From an uncultured SAR116 cluster alpha proteobacterium (GTDB lineage Bacteria > Pseudomonadota > Alphaproteobacteria > Puniceispirillales > Puniceispirillaceae), in NCBI GenBank assembly GCA_902583715.1, contig CACHXC010000001.1:83049-147048 (forward strand): a DNA stretch of 64,000 bases, given 5' to 3'. Shown one piece after another: positions 1 through 8,286 of the stretch; positions within the stretch are counted from its first letter, which is position 1, and every line of letters begins with the position of its first letter. The notes under the pieces are model-generated. The model saw only the letters and a list, made by a program, of their open reading frames with translations. It searched no databases and was not told the origin of the DNA. A program made the position numbers and the translations under genes.

Positions 1-626
1 TTAAAAATAATGAAGGTGCTAGACAATTAAAAGATTTGGTGATTGGGGCTGATATCTTCTCTCAAGGGTATAGACCTGATGCATTGAGTAAGCTTGGTTT
101 TGGTCCGGAGGAATTGAGTGAGATTCGCCCAGGCATTATTTATTTGTCAATTAATTGTTATGGCTTTGATGGACCATTCAGCAATAGGGGTGGTTGGGAA
201 CAGGTCGCACAAATCATGACAGGGTTGACGACTGAAGGCACTGGCCTGAACCAAATTAACGCGCCAAGTTTGCTGCCAGTTGCTGCAAATGATTATATTA
301 CTGGGTATCTCGGCGCATATGGTGCCCTTTTGGCGCTGGCTCGGCGAGCAAAAGAGGGTGGCAGCTATCATGTACGAGTATCACTTTGCCAGACTGCTAT
401 GATGATTTATCGAAATGGAAAAATTCAAAATGGAATAGCTCCTGAGGAGTTGTCTTCGAAAGAAATTGAAGAATTATCTATTCTTTCTAAAACACACTTG
501 GGCGAGGTAAAGCATCTAGCGCCGATATTATGTTTGTCTGAGACGCCACCGTTTTGGGAATTGTCGACCCCAAAATTAGGAGAAAACAGATGTGAATGGG
601 CGTCGAGCTTAACATTAAGTGGTTAA
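1..626 (+). CDS. Family III CoA-transferase (CaiB/BaiF), 3' part only
   Basis: The reading frame is open through the left edge, so the TTG at 36 in the ORF track is not the true start. The visible part matches the middle and end of family III CoA-transferases: the segment 'SQGYRPDALSKLGFG', then 'YLSINCYGFDGPF', and near the C-terminus the 'HLAPILCLSETPPFW' block usual for this family. These enzymes move CoA between carboxylic acids (carnitine/crotonobetaine type); the substrate cannot be named here. The catalytic Asp region lies around the retained central part and I cannot assign it with confidence. The DNA is visibly richer in A/T than the genes from 1 kb onward, and it ends about 230 bases before a tRNA 3' fragment, so it may belong to an integrated island. 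Confidence 0.8.
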   Translation, partial: KNNEGARQLKDLVIGADIFSQGYRPDALSKLGFGPEELSEIRPGIIYLSINCYGFDGPFSNRGGWEQVAQIMTGLTTEGTGLNQINAPSLLPVAANDYITGYLGAYGALLALARRAKEGGSYHVRVSLCQTAMMIYRNGKIQNGIAPEELSSKEIEELSILSKTHLGEVKHLAPILCLSETPPFWELSTPKLGENRCEWASSLTLSG

Positions 627-856
627 CGCTCAGCAAATTGTCCCAATTATATTCATTTATATTTCACATGATGGTGGCATACATGCCGATAGTGTTCAAA
701 AGATGATATGGAAACGCTTGATACGGAAATAGTGGCAAAAACAAAAAGTAGTGTTACCATTTTGTTACAACTTTTACCTGGGTATCTGACCTGATCCAAA
801 GCTACCTAAATCAGGAAAAGTGGCAGAAAACCTGCATAACAATCCCTATTCCATAA
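627..856. other. AT-rich intergenic stretch without a recognisable gene
   Basis: Between the CoA-transferase stop and the tRNA-like fragment I see no convincing coding sequence on either strand. The ORF called at 820-1008 runs straight through the tRNA-like fragment and is a chance frame. No integrase remnant could be recognised by eye, although this is where one might be expected if the tRNA fragment is an attachment site. Confidence 0.5.
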
Positions 857-902
857 ACTGGGGGTGTAAGGGTCGTAGGTTCGAATCACGCCGCTCAGAC
901 CA
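857..902 (+). other. 3' half of a tRNA-Pro(GGG) gene, candidate attachment (att) site scar
   Basis: The sequence from 'actggggg' through 'ggttcgaatc' to 'gctcagacca' reproduces the 3' half of an alphaproteobacterial tRNA-Pro with anticodon GGG: part of the anticodon loop and stem, the variable loop, the T arm and the acceptor strand with encoded CCA (900-902), followed by a T run at 904-910. The 5' half (acceptor strand, D arm) is absent upstream. The T stem pairs imperfectly (gtagg against cacgc, two mismatches), so the copy is not a working tRNA. Integrases of islands and phages often use the 3' end of tRNA genes, so this is most simply a leftover or distal att copy. The tRNA identity comes from remembered family sequence, not from a search. 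Confidence 0.65.
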
Positions 903-1055
903 ATTTTTTTCCCACATCGTGATATTACCAGCAGGTGTCTGGCCTACGTGTCCAGCGGTATTTTTTTCAATGTTTCTGATTATTTTGTTACCAATGCGCA
1001 CTGCCTAGGTGCAAAATAACAGATCAGGTTATGCGTATCGTTATGGAGTGCTATT

Positions 1056-1862
1056 ATGGATATCAGACTGGATAGAAGAACAGCAATTGTTACAGGCGGA
1101 AGCGCAGGTATTGGTAAAGCCATAGCGCAAAGTTTTATCCAGTCAGGTGCCAATGTTGTGATTGCGGCGCGCCGGCAACCCAACCTCAAACAGGCGGTGT
1201 CCGATATTGTGTCTGCTTGTGCAACCATTCCGGATTGTCAGTCTAAAATCAAAGCCATATCTGCCGATATTCGTTTGGCCGAGGATTGTGCCAAGGTAGC
1301 GGCCTTCGCGCAGGAAGAATTTGGCGGTATCGATATTTTGGTGAATAATGCGGGCACTTCGCAAAGAGGTGATTTTCTGGAGGTCAGTGATGCGCTTTGG
1401 CAAGAGGATCTAGATCTCAAATTATTCGCCGCTATTCGCTTATCAAGGCTGGTTATTCCGGGTATGCGGACCAGACAATGGGGCCGGATCATCAATGTGC
1501 TAAATTTAGGTGCCAAGGCACCAGCAGGTGGGAGCGCACCAACGGCCATTAGCCGCGCCGCTGGCATGGCTTTAATGAAGGTGCTATCCAAAGAAAATGC
1601 GGCTTATAACGTGCTGGTTAATGGCCTCTTGGTCGGGCGGATTGAGAGTGAACAATGGGAACGGCGACACGCCGCAGACGCCCGTCAATTGTCACTTGAA
1701 GACTGGTATGCAGAGGCGGCTGTACAGTTGGGCATAAGTATGGGCCGGTTTGGCACCGCACAGGAATTCGCTAATATTGCCACTTTTCTGGCGTCTGATG
1801 CCGGGTCCTATATTAATGGCACCGCCATTAACGTTGACGGTGGTCTTTGTCCAGTTGCGTAA
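1056..1862 (+). CDS. Short-chain dehydrogenase/reductase family protein with atypical active site
   Basis: This is a 268-residue SDR-fold protein. The nucleotide-binding motif TGGSAGIG is at residues 13-20 and NNAG at 97-100; the C-terminal 'INGTAINVDGG' block is typical of classical SDRs. The catalytic Ser-Tyr-Lys is not intact: the usual YxxxK position reads TAISR (163-167), with Thr for Tyr and Arg for Lys, and the preceding strand 'IINVLN' lacks the usual Ser. It may be a non-reductive SDR, one using other residues, or a binding protein; the substrate is unknown. A GGAG ribosome site lies 7 bases before the ATG. It stands alone, just right of the tRNA-Pro scar, and its stop codon is the start of a perfect AT-rich palindrome. 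Confidence 0.85.
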   Translation: MDIRLDRRTAIVTGGSAGIGKAIAQSFIQSGANVVIAARRQPNLKQAVSDIVSACATIPDCQSKIKAISADIRLAEDCAKVAAFAQEEFGGIDILVNNAGTSQRGDFLEVSDALWQEDLDLKLFAAIRLSRLVIPGMRTRQWGRIINVLNLGAKAPAGGSAPTAISRAAGMALMKVLSKENAAYNVLVNGLLVGRIESEQWERRHAADARQLSLEDWYAEAAVQLGISMGRFGTAQEFANIATFLASDAGSYINGTAINVDGGLCPVA

Positions 1863-1940: not shown

Positions 1941-2590
1941 GTGCTGACATTAACGCTCTATGAAATCGGGCTGTATCCACTGGCGCTTGCTTTGCTTTTT
2001 ATAACGCTGGGGCCCGTTTGGGGGGCGTTAATCGCCCACAGTTTAAAAAACGGTTTTAGCGGGGCATAGCCACTGGCGCTAAGGTGGCTTTTGGCGATGT
2101 TGTCTGGCCTGTACTGGCATTACTCACATTGGGCCAATTGGTGGCGGTGCATGTGGCCGTGCTGACTGGTCTTGAATATGTTGCGGTAATCGTATTTATG
2201 GTCATGGGGGTCGGGCTGATCATGGCCCGGGTTGATAAATTACAGGCTCCAGATCAATTAACCAGAGCTGGATTTTACTGGAGTTTATCGCTGGATTACT
2301 GGTCATTATAGGGAATCCACAGGGGATTTTATTTTACATTGGCGTGTTGCCCGGATTTTCTGATGTGACACGCGTGACCACGCCGAATATTTTGGTCGTG
2401 GGTCTGGTTTCGGTGGCTGTGCCCTTTTGCGGCAATGTCATTTTGGCGGTACTGCTTGACTGGGCCAGCCTGTTGATTGCATCGCAAAACGCGCGCCGCC
2501 ACTTTAATATCGTCACTGGCGTGGTGCTATTTATTGTAACTGGTCTTATTTTGATCATGCAGCGCTGGCCCAGACGAGGGCTACACGGCG
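1941..2590 (+). pseudogene. Decayed LysE/RhtB-family amino-acid exporter
   Basis: Three frames together spell one LysE-type exporter. The first piece, from GTG 1941, has 'LGPVWGALIAHSLKNGF' and ends at an in-frame TAG. The second continues from about 2080 with 'AFGDVVWPVLALL' and hydrophobic helices. The third resumes with 'IAGLLVIIGNPQGILFY', the conserved LysE block, then two more helices. I count one nonsense codon and two single-base frame changes, near 2078 and 2290. Several independent lesions outside long homopolymers argue for real decay, not sequencing error. Its 3' end overlaps the end of the minus-strand DMT transporter gene. A separate intact LysE gene lies at 8371-8982. Confidence 0.8.
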
Positions 2591-3576
2591 GCGGTTTTTA
2601 CTGGTTTTGTTTTTGATTCTTGTCGGTGTTCACGCCAAGCGGTGATCACACCGGCACTGGTAATCAAGATCATGCCGAGCCAGCCATTGGCCGTTGGCCA
2701 GCTATCAAAAATCACCTTGCCCCAAATGACCGCAAATAACAGGTAAGAAAAATCAAGCGGGGCAAGCCAACTACTATCGGCTGTTTGATAGGCACGTGTC
2801 AGCCCCAGATTGCCGAATAAATTCAGCACCGAACATAATGCCGCAAACCCTATGACCGCCATCCCTATTGCTGGCCAGCCAATCGCCACAAAGGGCATGG
2901 TGGACTGCAGGCCGAGTGAGAGCGGGGCAATGCTGAGGACCACGCTACCGGCAAGTCCTGAGGCAAAAAACATCACACCATTTGCAAAGGTTAGGGCAAG
3001 GGGGGTTTCCCCGCGGCAATAGCGCCGCAATATAATAATATTACAAGCATAAAAAAACCCGGCCGCGATCGGTAATAGCTGGGCCAAGGAAAACGCATCG
3101 GCCAGCGGGTTCAGCATTAAAAAAGCGCCAACTGCGCCCATCATCAAAGCCCCAATACGCCACTTCCCAACATACTCACCAAGCATGGGGGCGGCAAGCA
3201 AAGACACAAATAGCGGGTAGGTGTAAAGTCCGGCGGCCATCTGTGCGACACTCAAAAAAGGCGAGGCAGAAAAAAAACAAAACATACAGACAACCATGAC
3301 GAGACTGCGGGCGGCAACGGCCAGTCGGCGTTGTGGATAAATCAGTTTGAACCCACCGCTGATCAAGGCCAGACAAATAATCAGCGTCATATTTCCAGCA
3401 GAGCGCAGCGTTTGGATTTGCCAGAAAGAAGTGCTGTCAGAGATGAATTTGATCAGTGAATCCTGCAGTGCGAGCAAAGTCACACCTCCCAGCAACAACA
3501 TCAAAGCTGTCAAAGGATGATCGCCAGAAGGGGCCAATAATAAATTTGTTTTTTTTGACGGCAAACTCAGCTCCAC
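2581..3576 (-). CDS. DMT-superfamily (EamA) transporter
   Basis: This is a 331-residue hydrophobic protein with about ten predicted membrane helices in two EamA-like halves, the usual layout of drug/metabolite transporters of the inner membrane. The second half ends with 'LAPLDFSYLLFAVIWGKVIFD', typical of the family. The start is a GTG lying inside the last codons of the upstream flavoprotein gene (10-base overlap), so the two are very likely co-transcribed and translationally coupled. That context suggests transport of a methylated amine or of a product of its breakdown, but this is inference; EamA sequence alone does not give the substrate. Confidence 0.85.
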   Translation of the reverse strand: MELSLPSKKTNLLLAPSGDHPLTALMLLLGGVTLLALQDSLIKFISDSTSFWQIQTLRSAGNMTLIICLALISGGFKLIYPQRRLAVAARSLVMVVCMFCFFSASPFLSVAQMAAGLYTYPLFVSLLAAPMLGEYVGKWRIGALMMGAVGAFLMLNPLADAFSLAQLLPIAAGFFYACNIIILRRYCRGETPLALTFANGVMFFASGLAGSVVLSIAPLSLGLQSTMPFVAIGWPAIGMAVIGFAALCSVLNLFGNLGLTRAYQTADSSWLAPLDFSYLLFAVIWGKVIFDSWPTANGWLGMILITSAGVITAWREHRQESKTKPVKTAAV

Positions 3577-6504: not shown

Positions 6505-8286
6505 CTAGCGGCGTTTGTATAAAACGTCCAGCTGGTCTGCATAAGCGGCCCGGACAACATGACGCCTGACCTTCAATGTGGGCGTGAGCTGGCTGTTTTC
6601 AGTTGAAAAGGCCTCTTTTGCGATGACAAACCGCCGCACCCGTTCAATCTGTGACAGACGGGTATTGGCGCGGTCAACAGCTTCGGCAATAAGGATTTTT
6701 AAATCATTGTCTGAGGCAGCTTTGGCACGCGCTTCATCTGATGGCACAATCACGCCAGCCAGCCATGGCCGATGATCACCATCAACCATCACTTGTTCAA
6801 TTTCAGGTTCAATGGCGAGCAAGGCTTCAACCCGGCCGGGGGCGATATTTTCGCCGCCAGAATTTACGATAATATCTTTTTTGCGGCCAGTAATCGTGAC
6901 ATAGCCATCCTCATCGACGCTACCGAGATCTCCAGTACATAGCCAGCCATCTTTAATAACGCCAGCTGTTGTCGCCGGGTCGCGCCAATAGCCTTTCATC
7001 AGCATATCACCGCGAACTAAAATTTCACCATCTTCGGAAAGGCGCAATTCAACGCCGTCAACAGGTGGCCCGACAGTGTCTATTTTAATCAAATTTGGGC
7101 GGTTGGCTGAAATCAGCGGTGAGGCTTCGGTTTGGCCATAGCCCTGAAGTAATTTTACGCCAAGTGCCATGAAGAAACTGCCAACATCTGGGTTGAGGGG
7201 CGCCCCGCCTGAAATGAAATAGGCAAGCCGGCCACCTAGCCGCGCCCGGACCTTTTGTCTGACTATTTTTTCAAGGACAAGGTCCAAAATAAATTCATGC
7301 GGCAACAAATGGCGCCCGGCCAGTCGTTTCCGCCCCAGTCTGATGGTTTCATGAAACAGCTGTGCCGAGATGCCGCCTTTGCTGCGGACACCGCTCATGA
7401 TGCGTTCGTGTAGGACATCATAGAGGCGCGGCACGGCGGTCATCAATGTTGGCGACACATCTAGCAAATTAGCGGCGATTTGTTCGGCTGACTCGCTGTA
7501 CCAAACTTCTGATTTGGTTTGCAGCGGCAAATGCAAACCGGCAGTATGTTCATAGGAATGCGACAGTGGCAATAAAGATAAAAATCGCTGATCACTGGAT
7601 GCGTTGGCTTCTTCCAAAAGCATGATTGCGGCATCAATATTTGCCTGTATTGACCGGTGGGTCAGCATCACGCCTTTTGGCCGCCCACCAGTGCCAGAAG
7701 TGTAGATTAAACAGCAGGTATCATCAGCCTTTTGCGCATCAATGCTTTGGTCAATGGTGGTGAGTGGTTCAGCGGTCGCAACCGCATCATCCAACTGTTT
7801 CGTTTCAATGTTACTGTCAGGCAGTGCAATGGCTGTCGGGTCCATGAAAATCATGAGCCGCAGTTGTGGTGCGCGCGTGGCCGCCAGCATCATACGCGTG
7901 GCAAGCGCTCCGCCAGAGGTGATGGCAACAACAGCGCCCGAATGGTCCATAATGAAATGATGATCATCTTCGGTGTTAGTGGTGTAGGCAGGCACCACAA
8001 TCGCACCAATAGACATAATAGCCAGATCACAAATGGCCCATTCTGGACGATTTTCCGCGCTTATGATGACGCGGTCACCTGGCGACACGCCAGCAGCTAC
8101 CAAAACCGCGGCCAATTGACGTGTTTTGTGGTCAACTTCAGCCCAACTGAGTCCTGACCAACTGCCGTTGATCTTACGAAAAAATAGCGGTTTATCGCCA
8201 ACCGTTTTGGCAATGGAAAAAAACCGGCCTGCAAGATTGGCTTTGTTATCTGTTTGTTGTGCTGGCTGATGGGCTGGTTCAGGCAT
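6505..8286 (-). CDS. Long-chain acyl-CoA synthetase (AMP-forming)
   Basis: The 593-residue protein is an ANL-family adenylating enzyme. It shows the P-loop-like motif YTSGTGGRPKGVMLTH, the 'GYGQTEASPLIS' block and the C-terminal hinge 'TGRKKDIIVNSGGENIAP'. These are typical of the long-chain acyl-CoA synthetases (FadD15/ACSL-like, about 600 residues) that activate fatty acids with ATP and CoA on the cytoplasmic side. The first ATG fits the family length. It lies 84 bases downstream of the LysE exporter gene on the same strand, but with no functional link I can see. Chain-length preference cannot be read from the sequence. Confidence 0.88.
   Translation of the reverse strand: MPEPAHQPAQQTDNKANLAGRFFSIAKTVGDKPLFFRKINGSWSGLSWAEVDHKTRQLAAVLVAAGVSPGDRVIISAENRPEWAICDLAIMSIGAIVVPAYTTNTEDDHHFIMDHSGAVVAITSGGALATRMMLAATRAPQLRLMIFMDPTAIALPDSNIETKQLDDAVATAEPLTTIDQSIDAQKADDTCCLIYTSGTGGRPKGVMLTHRSIQANIDAAIMLLEEANASSDQRFLSLLPLSHSYEHTAGLHLPLQTKSEVWYSESAEQIAANLLDVSPTLMTAVPRLYDVLHERIMSGVRSKGGISAQLFHETIRLGRKRLAGRHLLPHEFILDLVLEKIVRQKVRARLGGRLAYFISGGAPLNPDVGSFFMALGVKLLQGYGQTEASPLISANRPNLIKIDTVGPPVDGVELRLSEDGEILVRGDMLMKGYWRDPATTAGVIKDGWLCTGDLGSVDEDGYVTITGRKKDIIVNSGGENIAPGRVEALLAIEPEIEQVMVDGDHRPWLAGVIVPSDEARAKAASDNDLKILIAEAVDRANTRLSQIERVRRFVIAKEAFSTENSQLTPTLKVRRHVVRAAYADQLDVLYKRR

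Follow-up and report, generated by a model that had tools for sequence, protein, structure and literature searches.

Islands inserted into tRNA or tmRNA genes by tyrosine integrases have a rebuilt tRNA gene at one end, a displaced 3' fragment of that gene at the opposite end, and an integrase near an end (Islander, PMC4383910). At the ssrA gene of Dehalococcoides, tandem islands are bounded by repeats of the 3' end of the gene, and some of these islands have no integration genes and are possibly cis-mobilizable (PMC3146451). The CIMEs of Streptococcus, known from site-specific accretion, are flanked by att copies, lack integration genes and stand in tandem with an integrase-bearing element (PMC5704250). 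Tycheposons, described in Prochlorococcus and also in Methylophilaceae, have a quoted size of 4 to 200 kb (PMC10872708).

The locus described here reaches into the left end of a 64,000-nucleotide stretch of DNA from an uncultured SAR116 cluster alphaproteobacterium (C1:83049-147048 of the source genome), the whole of which is called the window. It is bounded by an intact tRNA-Pro(GGG) gene on the left and by a displaced 3' fragment of that gene on the right, and four segments, E1 to E4, lie between the two. The rebuilt tRNA, the fragment opposite it and the integrase at the end of E1 are all shared with the Islander-type islands, from which the locus differs in having four segments in tandem and no integrase in three of these. 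The Dehalococcoides islands are likewise tandem at one RNA gene, bounded by 3'-end repeats and in part devoid of integration genes, but there the target is tmRNA, the repeat is 20 bp and the enzyme is a serine recombinase, whereas the present target is tRNA-Pro, the repeat measures about 50 bp and the recombinase is of the tyrosine type. By analogy, E2 to E4 may work like CIME remnants beside an integrase-bearing element; unlike in CIMEs, however, the presumed arm repeats of E1 (CTCCGTCAA, 12-bp period) do not resemble those of E2 to E4 (GTCTCC/GTTACC, 11-bp period). The likeness to tycheposons is one of layout only, namely aquatic bacteria, tRNA-flanked cargo, a tyrosine recombinase and nutrient-type cargo (the ABC transporter of E3), and E2 to E4 fall below, or at the low edge of, the tycheposon size range.

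A lone tRNA half and a tandem array

The right-hand end of the array lies in the window, where the features, in window coordinates, are as follows.

1..626, + strand: 3' part of a CoA-transferase family III gene (whole gene C1:82190-83674), cargo of E4 (PF02515, E=1.4e-55)
1..852, no strand: right-hand part of E4, about 41% GC; tRNA 3'-half copies lie on both sides of the segment
753..852, + strand: right terminus of E4, with an identity of about 83% to its counterparts in E2 and E3 by blastn and alignment; the GTTACCATTTT GTTACAACTTTT repeats at 753-775 are candidate arm sites for an integrase
853..902, + strand: displaced 3' half of tRNA-Pro(GGG), almost certainly the attachment-site copy that closes the tandem array on its outer side; 43 of its 50 bases agree with the 3' end of the intact gene
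903..1055, no strand: core DNA that would have followed the tRNA gene directly before insertion; aligns with the post-scar sequence of the sister species G002
1056..1862, + strand: first core gene flanking the scar, an SDR-family oxidoreductase by inspection of its sequence; 87% identical to G002:C17:6704-7504

The original prediction had placed a 3' half of tRNA-Pro(GGG) without its 5' half at 857-902. Such a half is present and slightly longer, and its 50 bases contain the anticodon arm with GGG, the variable loop, the T arm, the 3' acceptor strand and the encoded CCA (E of about 1e-10 in a whole-genome search of its own genome). The 5' half is absent, and an overlooked full cloverleaf was ruled out by ARAGORN, which called no tRNA gene in the window or in L008. 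A mispaired T stem, also foreseen, appears on comparison with the intact gene (GTAGG..CACGC against GTGGG..CCCGC): two T-stem pairs and one acceptor base are broken in the window copy. The expected passage from AT-rich to core-like DNA is seen as a rise in GC content from about 0.42 on the left of the copy to about 0.48 to 0.52 on its right. The stretch is a real displaced tRNA 3' half.

The intact tRNA-Pro(GGG) gene anticipated by the prediction lies to the left, at C1:61264-61340 (L007 1264-1340), 22.6 kb from the window copy. Upstream of it are genes for a short MerR-type protein, as judged from its sequence, and an IHF-like protein, both kept beside the tRNA in relatives. The shared direct repeat is also there: about 50 bases recur five times between the intact gene and the window, as the gene itself and four 3'-half copies that end at C1:74212, 76199, 80809 and 83950, the last being the window copy. 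All four copies start at nearly the same point of the tRNA and run to CCA-A. The segments between them measure 12.9 kb (E1), 2.0 kb (E2), 4.6 kb (E3) and 3.1 kb (E4, C1:80811-83950, with its right end in the window), and have a GC content of 41 to 42%, compared with 51% on the left of the array and 49% on the right. The source genome is a 60% complete assembly, in which 50-bp repeats could in principle cause mis-joins. From the inner to the outer copy, 50, 49, 44 and 43 of 50 bases match the working tRNA; we read the window copy as the oldest because the match falls with distance in this way, although the gradient is not a clock and some of the divergence of the two outer copies may go back to tRNA 3' halves that differed from the start.

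The scar had been read as the edge of an integrated island, with the left end of the window as the possible inner end of that island. The island-edge reading stands, but in place of a single island there is a stack of four segments. The left end of the window falls within E4, which is the outermost, is probably the oldest and has no integrase of its own.

Integrase, cargo and segment ends

An integrase to the left, the remaining element of the original prediction, was found in E1. This tyrosine recombinase (C1:72740-74020) has Phage_integrase (PF00589) and Arm-DNA-bind_3 (PF13356) domains and lies about 140 bp from the outer copy of E1, the only segment with an integrase near its end. A six-frame profile search with stops read through gave no PF00589 domain in E2 to E4, and no transfer gene was named among their searched ORFs; these three segments are CIME-like, being flanked by tRNA copies and devoid of integration and transfer genes in these searches. 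No autonomous partner of E2 to E4, which are themselves without an integrase, was found.

E1 also encodes a small helix-turn-helix protein. At C1:67003-70920 (L007 7003-10920) it has clustered genes for a proteasome-like subunit, a transglutaminase, an Alpha-E protein and a circularly permuted ATP-grasp protein, which together make up the set known from the Anbu operon (PMC5666114); here an Anbu-type gene set seems to be carried by a tRNA-integrated element. E3 encodes an ABC transporter, whose binding protein is NMT1-like, and an alpha/beta hydrolase, and E4 has a DUF1330 protein and the CoA-transferase. In E2 a GAF-domain protein is paired with one of 106 residues (C1:74475-75652). Relatives of this pair are common in the family (34 of 61 genomes), and no tRNA-Pro fragment lay beside them at the 8 loci checked, all of which are short, so that the pair does not serve as proof of a mobile cassette. 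G029 and G053 have the pair directly right of their scar. Together with the source genome, this makes three genomes in which a tRNA-Pro scar lies immediately left of the pair (C1:74475-75652, L064 3077-4245 and L068 14121-15289).

The ends of E2 to E4 resemble each other, with about 50 to 90 bases in common on the left and about 110 bases preceding the tRNA copy in common on the right, at identities of 76 to 91%. Both ends have tandem repeats of an 11-base period, GTCTCCATTTT or GTTACCATTTT (GTCTCC/GTTACC), present only as a diverged form at the left end of E4. E1 instead has CTCCGTCAA at a 12-base period, two per end. Within 30 kb the CTCCGTCA tandem repeats are confined to the two ends of E1, two at each, and their 8-mer core is found nowhere else there. 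Repeats in the attP arms are what arm-binding integrases recognise, and the end repeats of E1 and of E2 to E4 look like integrase arm sites. When the repeats at both ends were compared with shuffles, the score of E2 was reached by 0 of 150 and that of E1 by 3 of 150. No excess over shuffles was seen individually for E3, E4, the islands of G013 and G029, and others, so that the arm repeats of E3 and E4 rest on their likeness to E2. The repeats of E1 differ from those of E2 to E4, and therefore the E1 integrase probably did not move these three segments. The right terminus of E2 to E4 matched none of 136 genomes of the order except the window's own, its exact pattern was absent from the viral contigs, and the arm-repeat pattern occurs in its own genome only.

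A hairpin and T run stand directly after the intact tRNA, at the left end of E1, and again at the left end of E2 (z of -3.0 and -2.3), and the counterpart stretches of E3 and E4 are no more stable when folded than shuffled sequence. These terminator-like hairpins, at C1:61341-61400 and 74214-74285, occupy the tRNA-proximal ends of E1 and E2. It is as if each element came with a terminator of its own for the tRNA that it rebuilds, and the poor folding in E3 and E4 fits with selection lost once these ends had been displaced.

The same tRNA in the sister species and the order

The sister species casp15-mb.96 (G002, JAQCEA01) has the same junction. A tRNA 3'-half copy (52 bp, 98%) lies directly before its orthologue of the SDR gene, the DNA between the two aligns with the window, and an integrase 63% identical to that of E1 is found about 150 bp left of the scar. 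The relative that shares the sequence therefore has an island integrase on its left, as the prediction needs. Synteny is disrupted between the two genomes: an E1-like element occupies the junction in the sister species and the E2-E4 terminus is absent. The intact tRNA of G002 is located at a contig end. In both genomes the T loop is TTCAAAT in the working tRNA and TTCGAAT in the outermost copy, a split that would be expected if the working 3' half were element-derived and the host half displaced. No relative of the E1 integrase was found in viral contigs, and in genome contigs only the G002 record was. To the right of the scar, two short ORFs at window 2084-2616 correspond to two parts of a 212-residue ORF of G002 (C17 7576-8211), and by this comparison the gene looks broken in the source genome.

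Elsewhere in the order, many genomes likewise carry a further, partial copy 1.5 to 22 kb downstream of tRNA-Pro. An intact tRNA-Pro is followed by such a copy after 12.5 kb in G004, 10.2 kb in G011, 1.8 kb in G013 and about 21.7 kb in G020, and further partial copies lie downstream of the intact gene at 1.7 kb in G029, 8.6 kb in G031, 1.6 kb in G045 and 12.8 kb in G053. Integrase domains are found near the tRNA in G001, G004 and G005. The outer copy of G020 is followed by relatives of the window core genes at 2581-3576 and 6505-8286, and G022 has a relative of the 6505-8286 gene within 6 kb of its intact tRNA; we therefore consider that the tRNA and the window core were adjacent before the insertions. 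An empty site, with the tRNA followed directly by the equivalent of window position 903, was not found among the relatives.

The islands at this tRNA in G013 (L060), G029 (L064) and G045 (L066) are 1.5 to 1.8 kb long and have no integrase. Each has about one cargo gene, which by inspection of the sequences encodes a zinc-ribbon repeat protein, an FkbM-like methyltransferase and a SixA-like phosphatase, respectively.

Successive insertions and other readings

The window copy is almost certainly an outer attachment-site copy left by site-specific integrations into the 3' end of tRNA-Pro(GGG), at least four of them in turn. The five-fold repeat, the segment limits, the lone integrase, the decay gradient and the matching junction in the sister species are observed, and from them we infer both the mechanism and the order of these events. 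A tyrosine recombinase would cross the tRNA gene with an element attP that itself includes the 3' half of the tRNA; the working tRNA would then be completed by the copy of the element, and the host 3' half would be shifted to the far end of the element. With each element a fresh 3' half, and apparently a fresh terminator, would be supplied and the earlier half pushed outward, in at least four successive insertions at one site that began with E4 and ended with E1. The window copy would have been displaced first and, free of selection, would be the most decayed. The integrase that moved E2 to E4 would have come from elsewhere or have been lost later.

It is conceivable, and we offer it tentatively, that E2 to E4, rather than being decayed islands, are a family of small (2 to 4.6 kb) cargo cassettes that never had an integrase, kept their arm-repeat ends and were inserted in trans. 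Such cassettes can be likened to MITEs, which rely on a transposase as E2 to E4 would rely on a recombinase encoded elsewhere. The 1.5- to 1.8-kb islands of G013, G029 and G045 may follow the same strategy.

Fewer events would be needed if E2 to E4 had been stacked elsewhere and had arrived as a composite block in one integration, followed by E1. The common termini of these segments and their GC content of 41 to 42% agree with such a history, and conjugative transfer of CIME-ICE tandems is on record (PMC5704250), but the copies have decayed unequally (49, 44 and 43 of 50) and the terminator-like stems of E2 to E4 differ too. Separate ages fit both observations better, and we regard a single arrival as unlikely. 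That the copies arose by duplication of the tRNA gene and loss of the 5' halves, without a mobile element, is very improbable: tRNA genes are known to duplicate and decay, but here four copies have a uniform start position, end at CCA-A and each border AT-rich DNA, the DNA left of the E2-E4 copies is common to them, an arm-binding integrase lies beside one copy, and the same site has been used again and again across the order. A chance likeness of some 50 bases to a tRNA can be dismissed in view of the E value in its own genome and the conserved element terminus directly to the left, and is refuted by the orthologous junction of G002.

Read as successive insertions, the locus is a clear fresh example of a well-known process; the event is ordinary bacterial biology, unusually legible here. 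Repeated insertion at a single tRNA can be read off the locus, in which the copies decay outward and the 3' half of the working tRNA seems to be borrowed from an element. The same junction in the sister species is filled by a different stack, and tRNA-Pro(GGG) is marked as a recurrent integration hotspot in the order. The locus is also a place to ask whether cassettes without an integrase move in trans.
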